Source: Streptomyces sp. NBC_01723 (GTDB taxonomy: Bacteria; Actinomycetota; Actinomycetes; Streptomycetales; Streptomycetaceae). Taken from it: a stretch of 64,000 nucleotides of DNA. Below are positions 2,210-11,015 of the stretch, piece after piece. The stretch lies in contig NZ_CP109171.1 in assembly GCF_036246005.1 (NCBI RefSeq), forward strand, positions 3,026,001 to 3,090,000. The letters are read 5' to 3'. The stretch's first letter is position 1. Each line of letters starts with the position of its first letter. The notes beneath the pieces were generated by a model. The model searched no databases, was not told the DNA's origin, and saw only the letters and a program-made list of their open reading frames with translations. A program made the position numbers and the translations under genes.

Positions 2210-2989
2210 TCAGCAGGCGGGCACGCTGCCCTTGCCGCTCTCCAGGGCCGTGAGGGAGTCGACGGCGCCCTTGAGGGTGGTGACCGGGATCAGCCGCAGT
2301 CCCTTCGGCAGCTCGGCCTGCGCGTCGGAGCACTCGGCCTTCGGTACGAGGAAGACGGTCGCCCCGTCCCGCCGCGCGGCCTGCGTCTTCAGCGGCACGC
2401 CACCCACGGCGCCTACCTTGCCGCCGGTGGTGATGGTGCCGGTACCGGCGATGACCTCGCCGCCGGTGAGATCGCCGGCGCCGAGCTTGTCGACGATGCC
2501 GAGGGAGAAGAGCAGCCCGGCGCTGGGCCCGCCGACGTCCTCCAGCCGCAGGTCGACGTCGATGTCACGCCCGTCGAGCCGCAGGTAGTCCAGGGCGGCC
2601 GTGGTCGCCGCGTCCTGCGACTCCTTCATCTGCTCCTGGTTGTACTGCTCGATCTCGCCCACGTCGTCGCCGCTCGGGTAGACGGCATCGCGCGGCATCA
2701 CGGCCCGGTCGGTGTCGAACCAGCTGTCGACCACGTCACCGAGGCGCACGCTGGCATCCGGCCCGGTCGCCTCGATGGTCGTCATCCGCAACTGCCCGCT
2801 GGTCTCGCGCGTCGGCGCGCCCTTGATGGTGATCACCTCGGCGCCCCGGTTCTTCCCCAGCACGTCCGCCGTCAGCCCCGGCTGCGCCACGGAGAACGGC
2901 AACGGCGCGAAGAGCGCGGCAGCGAGCAGCCCCACGACGGGGACACCGCAGACGGCGAGGAACTGGGGGCGGGAGAGACGTGAGAGCAC
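2210..2989 (-). CDS. Secreted/membrane-anchored Lon-type (S16) serine protease domain protein, YlbL-like
   Basis: 259 residues starting at GTG. An N-terminal hydrophobic segment (about residues 10-35) acts as signal anchor, so the protein is extracytoplasmic. The C-terminal half is a Lon proteolytic domain: the catalytic Ser lies in GGPSAGL (near residue 158) and the partner Lys in GVPLKTQAA (near 200). Actinobacterial YlbL proteins normally carry a PDZ domain between anchor and protease and are about 340 residues; no PDZ is recognisable here. It is convergent with the transporter operon upstream. Substrate unknown; activity is predicted from the intact Ser-Lys dyad. Confidence 0.8.
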   Translation of the reverse strand: MLSRLSRPQFLAVCGVPVVGLLAAALFAPLPFSVAQPGLTADVLGKNRGAEVITIKGAPTRETSGQLRMTTIEATGPDASVRLGDVVDSWFDTDRAVMPRDAVYPSGDDVGEIEQYNQEQMKESQDAATTAALDYLRLDGRDIDVDLRLEDVGGPSAGLLFSLGIVDKLGAGDLTGGEVIAGTGTITTGGKVGAVGGVPLKTQAARRDGATVFLVPKAECSDAQAELPKGLRLIPVTTLKGAVDSLTALESGKGSVPAC

Positions 2990-3096
2990 GGGGTCAATCT
3001 AACGTGGGGGCGCGGGCGCTCGGGGTGGGGGCGGGGCGGCGGCGCCGTGCGGCACGGTCCGCCGGGTGCCGGGGGCTACGGGAGACGGATGGGGAC

Positions 3097-3828
3097 TTAC
3101 TGAACGCTGGTGCGGGCCACGGCTTGCAGTCGGCCGGGGATCACCGGCTCCTGCGTCGCGTCGTGCGTCAGCTCGAGTGTGTCGCCGGTGCTGTCCACCC
3201 GCCAGACGGCGCCGTGCCGGTTCTCCCACTCGACGAAGCTGCCGGGAGCACCGTCGAGCAGTTCCAGTTCTCGCACCAGCGTGTCCAGGGGAGCGAAGCC
3301 GCGGGCGTCGCCCTTGCTCATGCTCTGGGTACGGGTGTTGTCGTAGCGCATCTTGACGAACGGCATCTCGGTTCGGTCGAGCTTGTTCGGCTGGAGCATC
3401 TTGCGGAACCTCCCCCATGCCTCCTCCTCGTTCTCGCTGCCGGAGATCTCACTGGCGTAGGCGGGAAAGACGGCGTAGGTGACCGCTGACAGCTCCGGGT
3501 TCTCGGTGGCGTGGTAGCCGTGCACTTCGGGGGCCGCCACCCCTACGGTGTCGAACTGCGTCCCGTCGTGGTGGAAGCCGCCGACGGCCACCAGGGGCCG
3601 CCCCTGACCCACGAAGGTGTCGTCATGGGCGCGCGCGTGGGCGAGCAAAGCCGTGACGAGCGCCTCGTCGTAGCGACCACGTACGTTGACCTGCAGGTTG
3701 TGCCCGCCGTCGGTGGAAAGCGCGGCGGTGAAGGTGAACATCGGGTTCGGCGACCACCGCCACGCGGAGGCCAGACCGGGAACGGGAGCGGCGCCGGGCA
3801 TGGCGGACAGGACGGATCCAGGGTTCAT
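3097..3828 (-). CDS. Probable immunity protein of the adjacent RHS toxin
   Basis: 243 residues from the ATG at 3828, preceded by a GGAG ribosome-binding site 8 bases away. The frame is open upstream but that part lies inside the toxin gene. It is soluble, with no signal peptide or membrane segment, and acidic in the middle. I do not recognise a named family. It begins 31 bases after the stop of the RHS toxin gene, on the same strand and with no room for its own promoter. This toxin-then-immunity order is the standard one in polymorphic toxin loci. The function is inferred from position only. Confidence 0.55.
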   Translation of the reverse strand: MNPGSVLSAMPGAAPVPGLASAWRWSPNPMFTFTAALSTDGGHNLQVNVRGRYDEALVTALLAHARAHDDTFVGQGRPLVAVGGFHHDGTQFDTVGVAAPEVHGYHATENPELSAVTYAVFPAYASEISGSENEEEAWGRFRKMLQPNKLDRTEMPFVKMRYDNTRTQSMSKGDARGFAPLDTLVRELELLDGAPGSFVEWENRHGAVWRVDSTGDTLELTHDATQEPVIPGRLQAVARTSVQ

Positions 3829-3859
3829 GAGGGTGGCTCCTGTGCTCGGGTCGGGGGCC

Positions 3860-6800
3860 CTAGCTGCATGAGTAGAGGGTGGGGTGGACATCCTGGCGGT
3901 AGGTGGCGTCCATGAGCGCACCGCCGCGGGAGTTCTCGCTTCGCGTCATGGGCTCCATGTTCTCGGGGCGGTTGTAGAAGTCGTTGCGTACGGCCCGGTC
4001 GGAACGGTAGCCCGTCTGGTTCCAGTGATCGACCACCGGTGTCAGGTGCTCGTACGTGAGCTGGTTGGACGGGATGATCTCGCCCGCGGAGTTGCGCCAG
4101 GTCAGCTCAGACCTTGGGATGCGTTCCATGATCTGACGACCCTGGGGGTCGAGCTGTCCGGTGGGCCGCATGGGTGTGCCGCCCTGGGCGATGCCCTCGT
4201 CGGTCCAGGTGGCGGCCATGGCGTCATGGGTGGACTGGCGATAGCTGCCGGGGTACTCGGTGTCGCGGTTGTGGGCCTGTACGGGCGAGTTCGGGTCCCT
4301 CTCCCAGCGACCTTGCTGGCCGCGGATGCGGATGAGGCCCAGCGGGTCGAGGAGAACAAGCGGGTTGGTGATGTAGGCGTAGTCGTTCGGGTCCGGGGCC
4401 AGTCCCAGCGGATCGGCGCTGACGTAGCGCGCGGTCTCCGGGTCGTAGTAACGGAAGTAGTTGTAGTTCCAGCCGGTCTCGGCGTCCGCGTACTGCCCGG
4501 GGAACCGCAGCGGGCAGTCGGCCTCCGGGGCTGGGGGCGGTGCGCCGGTCGGCTGCCCCCAGGCCGTGAATCTGCGGTGCCAGACGATCCGGCCGTCCGC
4601 CGAGACGAGTTCGGTCGGTGTTCCGACGAGGTCGGTGACGATGGCGTAGAAGCGGGCGTCCGTGTCGTCGCTCAGGTCGCTTCCGCCTCGGTCCGCCACC
4701 GCCCGTTCGCCGCCACCGCTCACTGTCTGGGCGACGGGTCGGTAGGAACCCGGCGCGTAGTCCCACGTGGTGACGGTGCCGTCGGTCTCGATCTGTTCGG
4801 CGAGGCGTGTTCCGTCCCAGCTGAACGTCGTCTCCTCCAGCACGTCCCCGACGATGCCGAGGCGTTGTTTGCCGACCCGTCGGCCGTCCGGATCGTAGGT
4901 GTAGCGCCACTCGGATCCGTCCGGTGTGACGGCCCGGACCAGGCGGTCCTCCGGGCTCCACCCGTAGTGGGAGGTGCGTCGTCCGCCACTGAGGAGACGG
5001 ACCGTCTTGCGGATCAGGCGCCCCTGGCCGTCGTAGGCGTAGGTGGTGCGTCCGGCACGGTGCAGTCTGGTGCCGTCGACGTGGTGGGGCAGCGGTTCCG
5101 TGGTGCCGTCGTACGGGGAGCTGGTGACGAGGTTGCCCGCACGGTCGTACCCGTAGTTCTCTTCGCGGTCGGCGGTCCTGACCGCGGTCAGCCTGCCGAC
5201 CGGATCCACGTCGAACCGACGGCTTTCGCCGAGCAGCTCGTCGATCTCCCTGAGCGCTCCGTCGACGTCGTACGCGTAGGTGCGGTGCTGGAGCAGCTCA
5301 CCGCCTGCGTCGCCCCTGCCGCGGTTGGGCGCGGTGACCGACTGCTCGGTCAGCCGGCCGGAACCATCCCAGCTCTGGTGGAGTACCGCCTCCGCACCCA
5401 GCGTCCTGCGGATCTCATGATGGGCGGTGTCGTAGTCGAAGCGCAGTTGGCTGCCGGCGCCGCTCAGGGTCCGCGGGTGGCCCGTCGCCTCGTACGTCCA
5501 CGTCGAGGTGATGCCCGAGGGAGTGCGCCGGCTGATGCGACGGCCGAGGGCGTCGTACGTGTAGCTGGTGGTCCGGCCGTTGACCGTCTCGGTCAACGTG
5601 CGCCCCATGGAGTCGTAGGTGCGTTCGACCGTGGTGTCGCGGTTGGCCGCGCGGAGCAGTGAGCCGGTGCTGTCGTACTCGTAGCGAGTGCTCTCGTCCC
5701 CCGTGCGGTACTGGCGTGGCCGGCCAAGCAGGTCCACGGTCACGTCCGTGGTCTGTCCGGCGCCATTGGTCCACGACGTACGCTGCCCGGCCGCGTCGTG
5801 GGTGTAGGTGAGCGTGCGGCCGTTGAAGTCCGTCTCCCGGATCAGGCGGTTGGCCTCGTTGTATGCGTACTCCCAGGTGCGGCCGTCCGCGTTGTGGACA
5901 CCGGTCAGGTTCAGTTCGGTGTCGTAGGAGAACGTGTAGCGGCGGCCGTCCGGTGTGGTGCGGGAGGCCGGTTGGTGGAAGTGGGTGAACTCGTACGTGG
6001 TGACCGCACCGTCGCGGGCCGTGTGCGAGACGGGATTGCCCTCGCCGTCCCAGCTCCAGGCCTCCGTCGCGCCGTCCGGGAGCGAACGCCACGAGGCCAG
6101 TCCTTCGACGGTCCAGCCGAATCGATCGGTGGCGCCGGCGGGGTCGGTCACAGCGGTCACGCGTCCGAGGGAGTCGCGTCGTGCTCGGGTCGTCCGGCCC
6201 TCCGGGTCGGTGAGGGCCAGCGGCAGACCGGCCGGATCGGTCTGGATGTGCCGGGTGTGGCCGAGCGCGTCGGTGACGGAGAGGGGCCGCCCCAGAGCGT
6301 CGTAGCTGTAGCGAGTGGTCGCCCCGGACGGGTCGGTGACGGACAGGCGGTTGCCCCGCTCGTCGTAGGTGTAGGTCCAGAACGAACCGTCGGGCTCCGT
6401 GAGCCGGCGGGTGCGGCCTGCCTCGTCGTAGTCGGCCCGGACAGAGCTGAGGTCCGGTCTGACCACCTCGGTCAGGTGACCGGCCGCGTCGAAGACCTGC
6501 CGGGTGGTGCGGCCCAGGGGGTCGGTCCAGGAGACGAGGCGTCCGTTCTCGTCCCACTCCCGGCGGGTCGAGGCTCCCAGGGGGTCGGTGACCTGGACGA
6601 GTTGCAGACGCTCGTCGAACCGGTAGGTGGTGGTCCGGCCGAGGGAGTTGCGGTACGTGTTGACGCGTGCCGCGTCGTCGTAGGTGAGGGAGCAGTCGAG
6701 GAAACCGTCCGCTCCTCTGCCGGCCGTGACCCTGTGCCGCTCGTCGTAGGTGTAGCGATACCAACCGCCGTTGCGGTCGGTCCAGCTTGTGATGCGGGAC

Positions 6801-8539
6801 TCGGCGTCGTACGTGAGCTGGAAGTCCCGGCCCTGCCCGTCGGAGACGACGCGGAGATTGCCCTCCGTGTCGTAGGCGTAGCGTCGCACCACCGCCCATG
6901 GTGAGTGGACTTCCGCGCCGTAGCCGTCTTCCGGTGAGCTGAGAACGCTCAGGGACGTGATCCGGCCCTCTTCCGTGGCGATGGCCACCCGGTAGCCGCC
7001 CGAGTGGCGCATCTCGGCGAGGGCGCCCCCCTCGTCGTAGAGGAAGTCGATGCGGTGCCCGTTGCGGTCGGTTATCGCGGCGAGAGGCAGGGTGTAGGCG
7101 GGGGTGCCATCATCGCGCCGTACACCGGGGGAGAAGTGGTGGGTCAGTCCGGTCTCGTCGTCGTGGACGGTGATCGCGCCTTCGTCGTCACCGTTCCACG
7201 TCAGCGGCCGTCGAGGTCCCTCCAGAGGCAGGGTCGCGGTGCCGGGTGCGGGAATCGGATAGGCCAGGAGCATGCCGTCCTCACTGGCGAACACGACACC
7301 CTGGTCGTCGATCTCCAGGCGCTGGTCCAGCGTCGAGGCCCAACTCGCCCCGAAGCATCGACCCCAGCGGTAGGTCGAGACGTGGGTGCGTCGGACCAAC
7401 AACGGCAGGAGCCCGCCGAGTTCCAGGTCCACCTGCTCCATGAGCATCTCGCCGGACACCATGTCGATCGGGTCGCCGCCCCGGCACCGGCCCTTGTAGG
7501 GCTTGGCTTTCGCAAGAAGGTCCTTGGCACCGGAACGCAAGGTCTTCAGACCACCCCGCATGGCGGTGGCCATCCCCTTCATACCCTTGGCGAGTCCGCC
7601 GAGGGTGGTCAGGCCTTTCATGCCGGGTATGCAGTCCAGAGCCGCCAGCCCCACGTCCCACAGGGATGCTTGCCCCTTGCTGTATTTGTAGAGCGTGTCC
7701 GCGAGGACCACGAGAGCGGCCACGACCACGATCGCGGCGAGAATCGGACCGCCGATGATCATCACGACGATGCCGAGCACCGCGACGACGACCTTGCAGA
7801 CCGCGACGATCGTGTCCCAGTTGTCGGAGAACCAGTCGCCGACGTCCTCCCACCACGAACGGTTCTGGATGCCGGCGTCCGACGCCTCGTCGATCTTGTT
7901 CTTCGCGTCCCGGGCCGCGTCCTCGCGCATCTTGCGCGCGTCCTCGGCCATCTTCTTCGCCGCGTCCAGCGCACTCTGCGCCGAGTCGACGGCCGACTGC
8001 GCGTTTGTCTGGGCCGTCTTCGCGTGCTGGGCGTCACGGGTGGCGGCGCGGACCTTCGCCTCGTCCGGCTTGTCCCCGTCCGACTTGCTGCCCGTCGGAT
8101 CGTCCTTGTACTTGTCGGCTTCCTTCGTGGCCCGCGTCACCCACGAGTCCGCGGAGGACAGCTTCGACTGCGCGGAGGACAGGTCCTGACGGGCTTCACG
8201 GGCTTTCACCAGGGCCCGGTCGGCCAGGGCCTGGGCGCGCTCCAGCTTCGGCCAGAAGTCGGCGAGAGCGTCGCCGCACATGCCGTACGACTTCTCGAGC
8301 TTCTTCAGGTTCTTCGGAACGCCGGAGAACTCCTCCTTGAAGACCGTCGCGGACTTGCCCGCCCACTCCGCGAGCGTGGTCTCCCCCGCCATGCCCTTGA
8401 CCAGACGCAGCGCCTCGGACACGTCGTCCGCGAAGTCGTGCAACGTCTTCGCGAGCGTGCGCACGCGCTGCGGGTCGCCCGGCGTCGGGTCCTTGTCCAG
8501 GTCCAGGACATGCCAGTCACTCGGCCTGTGGCCCACCAT
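3860..8539 (-). CDS. RHS-repeat polymorphic toxin with WXG100-like N-terminus and HNH/EndoVII-like nuclease tip
   Basis: 1559 residues from ATG 8539 (GTG 8542 is equally placed behind a GGGGG motif). Order of parts: a WXG100/LXG-like helical region with a WAG turn at 59-61; an Ala/Lys/Asp coiled coil (about 95-215); a hydrophobic segment (about 240-275); a DUF6531 entry (GDPIDMVSGE); roughly 900 residues of YD/RHS repeats (GxxxxYxYDxxGN type); and the conserved RHS core ending in DPLGL near residue 1402, where such proteins self-cleave. The last ~157 residues form a variable tip containing LTYEHLTPVVDHW and PENMEPMTRSENSRGG, resembling HNH/endonuclease VII-fold toxin domains. Probably exported by a type VII-like route and delivered to rival cells. 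The next gene is a likely immunity protein. Confidence 0.88.
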   Translation of the reverse strand: MVGHRPSDWHVLDLDKDPTPGDPQRVRTLAKTLHDFADDVSEALRLVKGMAGETTLAEWAGKSATVFKEEFSGVPKNLKKLEKSYGMCGDALADFWPKLERAQALADRALVKAREARQDLSSAQSKLSSADSWVTRATKEADKYKDDPTGSKSDGDKPDEAKVRAATRDAQHAKTAQTNAQSAVDSAQSALDAAKKMAEDARKMREDAARDAKNKIDEASDAGIQNRSWWEDVGDWFSDNWDTIVAVCKVVVAVLGIVVMIIGGPILAAIVVVAALVVLADTLYKYSKGQASLWDVGLAALDCIPGMKGLTTLGGLAKGMKGMATAMRGGLKTLRSGAKDLLAKAKPYKGRCRGGDPIDMVSGEMLMEQVDLELGGLLPLLVRRTHVSTYRWGRCFGASWASTLDQRLEIDDQGVVFASEDGMLLAYPIPAPGTATLPLEGPRRPLTWNGDDEGAITVHDDETGLTHHFSPGVRRDDGTPAYTLPLAAITDRNGHRIDFLYDEGGALAEMRHSGGYRVAIATEEGRITSLSVLSSPEDGYGAEVHSPWAVVRRYAYDTEGNLRVVSDGQGRDFQLTYDAESRITSWTDRNGGWYRYTYDERHRVTAGRGADGFLDCSLTYDDAARVNTYRNSLGRTTTYRFDERLQLVQVTDPLGASTRREWDENGRLVSWTDPLGRTTRQVFDAAGHLTEVVRPDLSSVRADYDEAGRTRRLTEPDGSFWTYTYDERGNRLSVTDPSGATTRYSYDALGRPLSVTDALGHTRHIQTDPAGLPLALTDPEGRTTRARRDSLGRVTAVTDPAGATDRFGWTVEGLASWRSLPDGATEAWSWDGEGNPVSHTARDGAVTTYEFTHFHQPASRTTPDGRRYTFSYDTELNLTGVHNADGRTWEYAYNEANRLIRETDFNGRTLTYTHDAAGQRTSWTNGAGQTTDVTVDLLGRPRQYRTGDESTRYEYDSTGSLLRAANRDTTVERTYDSMGRTLTETVNGRTTSYTYDALGRRISRRTPSGITSTWTYEATGHPRTLSGAGSQLRFDYDTAHHEIRRTLGAEAVLHQSWDGSGRLTEQSVTAPNRGRGDAGGELLQHRTYAYDVDGALREIDELLGESRRFDVDPVGRLTAVRTADREENYGYDRAGNLVTSSPYDGTTEPLPHHVDGTRLHRAGRTTYAYDGQGRLIRKTVRLLSGGRRTSHYGWSPEDRLVRAVTPDGSEWRYTYDPDGRRVGKQRLGIVGDVLEETTFSWDGTRLAEQIETDGTVTTWDYAPGSYRPVAQTVSGGGERAVADRGGSDLSDDTDARFYAIVTDLVGTPTELVSADGRIVWHRRFTAWGQPTGAPPPAPEADCPLRFPGQYADAETGWNYNYFRYYDPETARYVSADPLGLAPDPNDYAYITNPLVLLDPLGLIRIRGQQGRWERDPNSPVQAHNRDTEYPGSYRQSTHDAMAATWTDEGIAQGGTPMRPTGQLDPQGRQIMERIPRSELTWRNSAGEIIPSNQLTYEHLTPVVDHWNQTGYRSDRAVRNDFYNRPENMEPMTRSENSRGGALMDATYRQDVHPTLYSCS

Positions 8540-8634
8540 CACGCAACCCCCGTCGACGCACCCACAACAGCAACAACCCGTATGCACACGTGAACTTACA
8601 AGGTGCGAGTGTTCGAGTGGAAGGTGAGCCGGGT

Positions 8635-9138
8635 TCAAGCGGACGGCCGGAGGTTCAGTTCGGCCCGGACCGTCTTGCCGGGCAGCGCGACGCCCCGTGA
8701 GATCCGGTCGACCACCTCCCAGTGGTCGGCGAGTGCGTCGACCAGGAGCAGGCCTCGGCCGGTGTCGTCCAGCGGGCTCGGGGGCGGTGCTTCCCCGGGT
8801 GCGGGTGGCCTGCGTTCTGCCCTGGTGTCCGAGACCTCGATGTGGAGGTGGACGTGCGGGGCGTGGATGAGGCGCAGTTCGAAGTCGCGGCCCGGGACTC
8901 GGCCGTGGGTCACGGCGTTGGCCGCCAGCTCCGCGACGATGAGGGTGGCGGCGTCGGAGAGGGCGGTTCTGTACGGGATGCCCCACGCGTGGAGCTGGGT
9001 GGCGGCCAAGTGGCGGGCGAGGCGGGCGCCGAGTGGGGTGGAGCTGAAGCGCTGCGTGAACATACGTACGGTGACTGGCAGTTGGTGGGGCGAGAGTGGC
9101 GTCATGGGGTCACCGTGGCGTTCGGCCGCGTACTTCAC
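8635..9138 (-). CDS. HATPase-fold anti-sigma-factor-like ATP-binding protein (RsbW/SpoIIAB type)
   Basis: 167 residues with a GHKL ATPase fold: the N-box is seen in ELAANAVTHG and the G1 box in DDTGRGLLLVDAL. This is the small regulatory kinase type found in large numbers in Streptomyces, often beside XRE and DUF397 genes as here. It is divergent from the XRE gene. Two starts are possible: GTG at 9138 (used) or ATG at 9105 (MTPLSPHQ); neither has a convincing ribosome-binding site. The conserved part begins only after residue 12, so the shorter form is equally plausible. Partners (sigma factor, anti-anti-sigma) are not encoded nearby. Confidence 0.85.
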   Translation of the reverse strand: MKYAAERHGDPMTPLSPHQLPVTVRMFTQRFSSTPLGARLARHLAATQLHAWGIPYRTALSDAATLIVAELAANAVTHGRVPGRDFELRLIHAPHVHLHIEVSDTRAERRPPAPGEAPPPSPLDDTGRGLLLVDALADHWEVVDRISRGVALPGKTVRAELNLRPSA

Positions 9139-9262
9139 CAGGTCAGCTACTCGTACGCTCCGTCAGCGTACGAGTGCGAAGAGTGGACAGTGGTGGTGAC
9201 GGGCTGTAAGCCTGGGCGTCTTCAAAGTGTGCGGCGGGGAGAGCGTGCGGAAGGTGGCCGCC

Positions 9263-10114
9263 ATGGCGGACGGTGCGGTGGATGCGGGCGTGGTCGGCGG
9301 GGGCGGTGAGCCCGACGTGTCCGACAGCCTCAGGACGTTCGGGGCGGTGGTCCAGGGGTTCCGGAAGCGGGCCGGGATGACGCAGGAGGAGTTGGCCGAA
9401 CGGGTTCGGTACTCCGTGCAGACCGTGGCGTCGGTTGAGCAGGGGCGGCGCTTTCCCACGGCGGAGTACGTACGGCGGGCCGAGGACGTGCTGGATGCGG
9501 CCGGGATCCTCAGCGGGGCCGTGCGGCACCTTTCCCGGCAGCCGGGGCTCGCGAGCTGGTTTCGGCAGTGGGCTGGGCTGGAGGCCACTGCCGTCAGCCT
9601 CAGTACGTATGAATGCCGGCTCGTACCGGGTCTGTTGCAGACGGAGACGTATGCGCGCGCGTTGTTCGAGAACCAGTTGCCTCCCCTGAGCGACGAACAG
9701 ATCGAGGCACGATGGATGGCGAGGACGGAACGGCAGAAACTGCTCCGGGAGCGGCCGAACACGGCGTTCAGCTTCATCGTCGAGGAGCATTTGTTCCTGC
9801 GCCGCACGGGCGGGGCAGATGCGACCCGGCAGCTGATCGAGCACGTAATGGAGCTGGCAGCTCTGCGCAATGTCGAAGTGCAGGTGATGCCGTTGGTACG
9901 GGCGGCTCATGCCGGCCTGGCCGGTCCCATGCAACTGCTGGAGACCCCCGAGGCCCGCTGGTTCGCCTACAACGAGGGACAGCGCGGGGGCCTGTTCGTC
10001 TCCGACCCGAAGGAAGTGAGCGTCCTCCAGATGAGGTATGCCAGGATGCGCTCACAGGCTCTCTCACTCGAAGACTCCCTGGGCCTGTTGCAGGAGATGC
10101 GAGGAGCCCGATGA
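9263..10114 (+). CDS. XRE-family helix-turn-helix regulator with DUF5753
   Basis: 283 residues from ATG 9263, chosen because GGAAGGTGG lies just upstream; GTG 9245 and GTG 9227 are alternatives. The N-terminal helix-turn-helix (FRKRAGMTQEELAERVRYS, then VASVEQGRRFPT) spans about residues 26-80. The rest is DUF5753 (VPGLLQTETYARALF, SFIVEEHLFLRR, FVSDPKEVS), an actinobacterial ligand/partner domain of unknown role. The 3' end overlaps the DUF397 gene by 4 bases. Such XRE-DUF397 pairs belong to the AbaA/WhiJ-like systems that influence development and antibiotic production; DUF397 proteins are thought to modulate the regulator. Confidence 0.9.
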   Translation: MADGAVDAGVVGGGGEPDVSDSLRTFGAVVQGFRKRAGMTQEELAERVRYSVQTVASVEQGRRFPTAEYVRRAEDVLDAAGILSGAVRHLSRQPGLASWFRQWAGLEATAVSLSTYECRLVPGLLQTETYARALFENQLPPLSDEQIEARWMARTERQKLLRERPNTAFSFIVEEHLFLRRTGGADATRQLIEHVMELAALRNVEVQVMPLVRAAHAGLAGPMQLLETPEARWFAYNEGQRGGLFVSDPKEVSVLQMRYARMRSQALSLEDSLGLLQEMRGAR

Positions 10115-10356
10115 GCAGCACTGAGCTGGCATGGTTCAAGAGCAGCTACAGCAGCGGCGGAGACGGTGACTGCGTTGAAGTAGGCATCGCCTGGTTCAAG
10201 AGCAGCTACAGCAGCAGCGGGGACGGTGATTGCGTCGAGGTCGCAACGTGCCCCGCCGCCGTCCACGTCCGTGACACCAAGGACCGGCGCGGCCCCCAGC
10301 TCGCCCTCTCCCCCGCCGCCTGGCGCGACTTCGTCGCCCACGCCTCGCACGGCTGA
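10111..10356 (+). CDS. DUF397 protein with duplicated N-terminal motif
   Basis: 81 residues from the ATG at 10111, overlapping the XRE stop (ATGA). DUF397 proteins are about 60-65 residues with one WFKSSYS..GDGDCVEVA motif, then a V.VRDTK segment and SPAAWRDFV. Here the first motif occurs twice: AWFKSSYSSGGDGDCVEV and again AWFKSSYSSSGDGDCVEV exactly 20 residues (60 bases) later, followed by a normal C-terminal half. The copies differ at several silent positions. It is presumably the partner of the XRE regulator immediately upstream. Confidence 0.9.
   Translation: MSSTELAWFKSSYSSGGDGDCVEVGIAWFKSSYSSSGDGDCVEVATCPAAVHVRDTKDRRGPQLALSPAAWRDFVAHASHG
10132..10251 (+). repeat. 60-bp tandem duplication inside the DUF397 gene
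   Basis: Two adjacent 60-base units, 10132-10191 and 10192-10251, each starting TGGTTCAAGAGCAGCTACAG. They differ at scattered, mostly third-codon, positions, so the duplication is not very recent and has kept frame. Confidence 0.85.
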
Positions 10357-10367
10357 GGCGAGGCACG

Positions 10368-11015
10368 TCACCGCAGGGCCTCCGCCACCTCCCGGGCCGC
10401 GTGCATCACGCGTTCGCCCACGCGTTCCGGGACCACCTCCGAGAGCATGACCACGCCCACGCTGCCCTCCACGCCCGTCACCCCGAGCAGCGGCGCGGCC
10501 GCCCCGCAGGCGCCGGCCTCCAGTTCGCCGTGGGTCAGGGTGTAGCCGGGGTCGTCCGCGGCGTCGCCGGGCTGGCGGGCGGAGAGGATGGCCTTGCCGG
10601 CGGCGCCGCGTTCCAGGGGGTGGCGGAAGCCCGCGCGGTAGGCGACGTGGTAGTCGGTCCAGGTGGGTTCGACGACGGCCACGGCCAGGGCCTCCGCTCC
10701 GTCCACCAGGGTCAGATGGGCCGTCGCCCCGATGTCCTCGGCCAGCGAGCGCAGGGCCGGCATGGCGGCCTCGCGGACGAGGGGGTGCACCTGGCGGCCC
10801 AGGCCCAGTACGCCGAGTCCGACCCGGGCGCGGCCGCCCAGGTCACGGCGTACCAGCGCGTGCTGTTCCAGCGTGGCGAGCAACCGGTAGACGACCGTCC
10901 GGTTCACGCCCAGCTTGTGGGACAGCTCGGTGACGGTCAGCCCGTGGTCCGTGTCGGCCAGCAGCTTGAGGACCCGCAGTCCCCGGTCGAGCGTCTGAGA
11001 GGTCTCCGCGGTCAC
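10368..11015 (-). CDS. IclR-family transcriptional regulator
   Basis: 215 residues. GTG 11015 is preferred over GTG 11024 because AAGGAG lies 9 bases before it; the upstream GTG would sit directly on that motif. The N-terminal winged helix (LDRGLRVLKLLADTDHGLTVTELSHKLGVNRTVVYRLLATLE, about residues 8-50) is typical IclR. The C-terminal effector domain is present (GATAHLTLVDGAEALAVAVVEP, RAGFRHPLERGAAGKAIL) but somewhat short at its end. It is convergent with the DUF397 gene only 11 bases away. Effector and targets are unknown; no catabolic operon sits beside it. Confidence 0.88.
   Translation of the reverse strand: MTAETSQTLDRGLRVLKLLADTDHGLTVTELSHKLGVNRTVVYRLLATLEQHALVRRDLGGRARVGLGVLGLGRQVHPLVREAAMPALRSLAEDIGATAHLTLVDGAEALAVAVVEPTWTDYHVAYRAGFRHPLERGAAGKAILSARQPGDAADDPGYTLTHGELEAGACGAAAPLLGVTGVEGSVGVVMLSEVVPERVGERVMHAAREVAEALR

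Follow-up and report, generated by a model that had tools for sequence, protein, structure and literature searches.

A predicted Rhs toxin–immunity pair with a type VII-type leader and a SuFu-like antidote model in Streptomyces sp. NBC_01723

In the 64,000-nt stretch of contig NZ_CP109171.1 analysed here (the window) from Streptomyces sp. NBC_01723, whose genome comprises 8.85 Mb in two contigs, a gene for an Rhs polymorphic toxin is followed after 31 bases (3829-3859) by a gene of no named family. We read this pair, with a probability of roughly 0.8, as a toxin–immunity module for contest among related actinobacteria that works by the following mechanism in full. The leader would bring the toxin to the cell's ESX-like type VII machine, the Rhs repeats would form a closed shell around the C-terminal tip, and the DPLG-X18-DPLG plug, a motif seen in the protein, would cut the tip free. 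In the target cell, the tip would act as a metal-dependent nuclease of the HNH/EndoVII type that relies on His1498 together with Asn1527/Asn1536 and cuts most likely DNA, and the SuFu-fold partner, which has no membrane segment, would bind and block the tip in the producer and its kin. The pair would travel as a module, with shell, tip and immunity swapped behind a kept leader and orphan immunity genes retained in toxin-less strains. Toxicity, export, cleavage and protection are functions that we infer. The combination of Rhs shell, type VII-type leader, HNH/GH-E-like tip and SuFu-fold immunity is of a known kind, and its new part is the antidote family. The features on which this reading draws are as follows.

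3860..8539, minus strand: Rhs polymorphic toxin gene, ATG-started frame of 1559 aa
7877..8479, minus strand: type VII-type leader, residues 21-221 (Pfam T7SS_signal, PF21725)
8357-8365, minus strand: WAG within the leader, residues 59-61
7679..7822, minus strand: hydrophobic segment, residues 240-287, with strongly hydrophobic hydropathy windows
4334..7477, minus strand: Rhs shell, residues 355-1402 (DUF6531, 14 RHS repeats, RHS, Rhs_assc_core)
7448..7474, minus strand: DPIDMVSGE, residues 356-364, like the D|PVYVASGE / PVSMVTGE motif
4337..4414, minus strand: DPLG-X18-DPLG closing plug, residues 1376-1401, like the Rhs autoprotease motif
3863..4333, minus strand: tip of 157 aa, most likely a divergent HNH/EndoVII (GH-E-like) nuclease domain
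4046..4048, minus strand: His1498, proposed general base
3932..3934, minus strand: Asn1536, proposed third residue of the HNH motif
3097..3828, minus strand: candidate immunity gene, ATG-started frame of 243 aa
3349..3828, minus strand: predicted SuFu-like domain of the immunity protein, residues 1-160
3100..3360, minus strand: extra C-terminal beta/alpha part of the immunity protein in the predicted model, residues 157-243

Homology searches matched 33 proteins with the tip region (E<=0.001) and 54 with the 243-aa protein, so that a chance origin of the frames is not sensible, and Streptomyces made up the majority of named relatives for both. In a survey of 199 Streptomyces genomes, including the source genome, a partner relative was found in 25 and the tip in 18 of them. 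In every one of the 18 tip genomes the partner lay on the 3′ side of the tip, with 24-73 bases between the matches, which bears out the toxin–immunity order proposed in the initial annotation from the window alone; the hypergeometric probability of this co-occurrence, calculated with relatedness ignored, was 2.8e-20. In G095 and G156 the tip is truncated. Pairwise divergence of tips and partners was likewise matched (Mantel r 0.84, p 1e-4), a correlation to which relatedness may add and which was calculated for 16 pairs, the truncated tips of L062 and L065 being too short; r became 0.86 when six further loci were added. The downstream gene is probably the antidote to this tip, the pairing being seen across genomes and the antidote presumably acting by binding.

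Against strict pairing, seven of the 25 partner genomes have no tip. One tipless copy (L069) is part of an array that follows an Rhs toxin whose leader is 79.6% identical but whose tip is not the present one; another (L068) lies beside a transposase-like frame, a third (L074) is fragmentary, and three (L070-L072) have no Rhs hit nearby. L073 (G190, ~6273-8294) looks like a decayed version of the locus, in which a piece of the leader, sharing 87% identity across 94 residues, stands ~1.4 kb before a partial immunity gene. Further partner copies without a whole tip alongside were found in G132, G095 and G156, and in the last (L077) two tandem genes like that of the window's immunity protein (P0002) follow the truncated tip frame.

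The tipless genomes are what favours reading the downstream gene as an unrelated SuFu-like gene, carried along as a linked passenger and giving no immunity. We hold this to be extremely improbable, since the partner stands directly behind all 18 tips, on different carriers, and diverges in step with them; the tandem copies behind a truncated tip, the copy in the array behind another Rhs toxin and the fusion of a partial barstar domain to a partner relative also argue for immunity, as does the published pairing of GH-E toxins with SuFu proteins (PMC3482391). A housekeeping role of the gene was considered and rejected, as only 25 of 199 genomes carry a relative.

The tip contains EHLTPVVDHW and NMEPMTRSENSRGG, both located within the 157 residues in which the initial annotation had seen nuclease-like motifs. 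All Pfam matches of the window's tip alone fell below cut-off (GmrSD_C E 0.029, HNH_3 0.18, GH-E 0.79), and a genome-wide search of the source genome for GH-E (PF14410) gave no match, but some relatives exceeded the GH-E cut-off of 25 bits (P0033, 31.0; P0094, 27.4; G027, 25.5), and His1498 and Asn1536 were invariant in all 41 aligned tips. These 41 were taken from 47 rows after leaving out the immunity protein P0002 and the fragments P0093, P0095, P0099, P0100 and P0101. The GH dipeptide of the published Tox-GH-E motif does not occur in them, the residue before His being E in 39 tips and N or D in 2. PDB sequence searches with the tip and immunity alignments returned nothing useful. Several weak lines together place the tip, most likely, among divergent HNH/EndoVII nucleases close to GH-E; it would cut nucleic acid, DNA most likely, or RNA.

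The sub-threshold matches and the missing Gly of GH would also suit a tip that is catalytically weak or inactive, with the pair as a remnant or an intracellular toxin–antitoxin module, a role claimed for Rhs elements in PMC7043789. Yet the frame is intact, the two proposed catalytic residues are invariant, and shell, plug spacing and tip are kept in many species, and we consider such a state very unlikely.

Among other carriers of the tip, four proteins of 235-247 aa (P0094, P0096, P0097 and P0098) have it after a start rich in Gly, in which no Rhs domain is recognised, and Rhs-type proteins of 2471-3876 aa (L079, L080, L081 and L082, the first with laminin-G domains) have a related tip at their end, followed by a member of the same immunity family. 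Around the GH-E gene of G161 no partner was identified when the neighbourhood was read by eye.

The toxin itself has the build of an Rhs polymorphic toxin, in which RHS/YD repeats close in Rhs_assc_core and a variable tip follows. Pfam matched DUF6531 at residues 355-427, 14 RHS_repeat stretches and RHS at 1300-1329, NCBIfam matched Rhs_assc_core at 1325-1402, and the last DPLGL, at 1398-1402, leaves 157 residues as the tip; the single protein of leader, hydrophobic segment, shell ending in DPLGL and tip described in the initial annotation is thus confirmed to the base. DPIDMVSGE at the start of the shell resembles the N-terminal autocleavage motif of type VI secretion system (T6SS) Rhs proteins (PMC8636562), and the exact DPxG-X18-DPxG spacing at its end recurs in 33 of 34 tip-bearing proteins, P0033 being the exception. 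Photorhabdus Rhs1 is cut at both its N-terminal and C-terminal motifs, the tip being released by a cut after the second DPLGL, and a block at either motif abolishes toxicity in the account given there (PMC8636562). By analogy with other Rhs proteins, the plug of the present toxin would free the tip by autocleavage.

As to the leader, T7SS_signal scored 32.7 bits on the toxin against a cut-off of 27, by which the leader domain is recognised. The WAG pointed out in the initial annotation is present at residues 59-61; the WXG100 model reached 19.7 bits, below its cut-off of 27.3, and no YxxxD/E motif was found among the first 260 residues. About 1.66 Mb from the pair, the genome encodes a 1565-residue EccC/EssC-like protein with FtsK/SpoIIIE domains, which scores below the EccC_b cut-off and whose start weakly matches an FHA-type domain (24.4 bits against a cut-off of 33.2). 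A WXG100 protein (64.6 bits) adjoins this gene, and within ~8 kb, at this type VII secretion system (T7SS)-like locus, are two proteins with leader-like starts (BLASTP E 1e-10 and 2e-7, each a single comparison). The EccB and EccD models matched nothing in the genome, and nothing in the controls either. Type VII export is therefore likely, and the leader would direct the toxin to an ESX-like type VII machine.

A genuine toxin–immunity module might instead be delivered by another route, with leader and hydrophobic segment anchoring the shell at the surface or membrane for contact-dependent action. Weighing for such a route and against type VII export are the strong hydrophobic segment right after the leader, the occurrence of the tip on Rhs proteins without a recognised type VII leader (19 of 33 matches, some of them truncated) and on long Rhs-type proteins, among which one has laminin-G domains, and the silence of the EccB and EccD models, which extends to the controls. 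The T7SS_signal score above cut-off and the encoding of leader-like starts near the EccC/EssC-like ATPase and WXG100 genes speak for the type VII route, however, and hydrophobic segments are also described for T6SS Rhs effectors (PMC8636562), so that we regard delivery by another route as unlikely.

Searched against Pfam, NCBIfam and PADLOC, the immunity protein (P0002) gave no match up to an E of 1, in agreement with its earlier description as a protein of no named family, and has no strongly hydrophobic segment. None of 35 immunity-family members matched Pfam SUFU at E<=0.1 or any other informative family, and an hhalign comparison of the family with 25 core Streptomyces SUFU proteins (kept from 30 rows after cleaning) was not significant. 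Nevertheless, a confident predicted model gives residues 1-160 a SuFu-like fold, and Imm-SuFu is a published partner class of Tox-GH-E toxins (PMC3482391). With such a fold predicted for antidotes of no named family, SuFu immunity may extend further than sequence profiles reveal, and structure-based searches may therefore name other orphan genes behind Rhs tips. A SUFU match was present in 198 of the 199 Streptomyces genomes, apparently as a core gene, and that of the source genome lies at G000:C1:5292537-5293031. P0058 (375 aa) joins part of a barstar domain to an immunity domain like P0002 and may be a composite antidote.

The pair lies in an islet, which contains the following further features.

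3005..10367, no strand assigned: islet containing the pair, 7.4 kb, with outer edges at 3004-3065 and 10366-10370
8635..9138, minus strand: HATPase_c_2 protein (Pfam search)
9227..10114, plus strand: HTH and DUF5753 regulator
10111..10356, plus strand: DUF397 protein

In five of seven relatives, the flank up to 3004-3065 and the one that starts at 10366-10370 stand side by side, 0-465 other bases apart, and the stretch 3005-10367 is therefore an islet. The flanking genes are probably a lon-like PDZ protease gene, at which Lon_C matched, and an IclR regulator gene. Of these five relatives, four have the pair elsewhere, and in the fifth a piece of the immunity gene is present; one further relative has unrelated genes at the islet site. 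At L039, L040, L042 and L044, four loci that have the pair complete, homology to the window is confined to ~3050-8624; it begins some 60-85 bases ahead of the toxin and stops at, or slightly past, the end of the immunity gene, and the flanks differ. L046, which shares the flanks of L044, has no detectable tip and retains an immunity-gene fragment (residues 78-243).

In the seventh relative, S. parvulus, the same site is taken up by an Rhs gene (L144:8170-12738) whose leader of 230 residues shares 98.7% identity with that of the present toxin and whose shell shares 43.6%; its tip is a different one, for which no immunity gene was identified. Another contig of this genome carries a gene 84% identical to that of P0002, and no tip was found in the 20.7 kb examined there. 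As judged from these sequences, S. parvulus clearly exemplifies an exchange of tips at a single chromosomal site. The locus is a clean test case for Streptomyces protein warfare, for it offers a confident pair, an allele at the same site whose leader is nearly identical and whose tip is another, and, in the strain that has this allele, an orphan antidote. At somewhat below even odds, we further propose that the gene at 3097-3828 represents an undescribed SuFu-fold immunity clade, unrecognisable by sequence and with an added C-terminal domain, which serves one GH-E-like nuclease clade across several delivery vehicles; the killing half would be swapped behind a fixed type VII leader at one site, and orphan antidotes to the alleles of neighbours would be kept.

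Compared with known systems, the pair agrees with Tox-GH-E and Imm-SuFu in its carrier and, as predicted, in fold, export and immunity class, the HNH/EndoVII fold, RHS carriers, T7SS (WXG) export and Imm-SuFu all being listed for Tox-GH-E (Zhang et al., 2012, PMC3482391). It differs from them in the E, N or D, instead of Gly, before the conserved His, and in an immunity protein that has an extra C-terminal part and no Pfam SUFU match. LrhA/LrhI of the Listeria T7SSb (PMC10327511) likewise combines DUF6531 and Rhs repeats with a type VII link and a candidate immunity gene immediately after the toxin gene, and other strains have orphan copies of that immunity gene. However, a transmembrane domain is predicted for LrhI and an envelope target proposed, in contrast to the present immunity protein, and LrhA lies within a T7SS locus with WXG100-like small genes rather than at a distance from the T7SS-like locus. 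Photorhabdus Rhs1 resembles the present toxin in its shell, which combines an N-terminal motif of the D|P type with two DPLGL motifs (PMC8636562); the 17 residues counted there between DPLGL motifs equal the present spacing, since 18 between DPLG are 17 between DPLGL. It has a PAAR N-terminus and a Tre23 tip, whereas the present toxin has a T7SS_signal leader and an HNH-like tip. Tde5/Tdi5a/Tdi5b (PMC13392607) similarly joins a toxin, a beta-beta-alpha-Me DNase, to dedicated immunity; Tde5 is a Pseudomonas T6SS effector and is likened here by description only. Taken together, the initial annotation's interpretation as an interbacterial toxin with its immunity gene is supported.

No sigma-70-like promoter was found at the locus, and terminator-like sites were about as numerous as expected by chance. 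A separate search of each end of the pair, at 2900-3140 and at 8500-8760 of the window, gave no direct repeat and one 10-base inverted pair. A second place with RHS repeats in the genome (L119, ~4120-4281; G000:C1:6594119-6594280) lies in a short frame and is perhaps a remnant.
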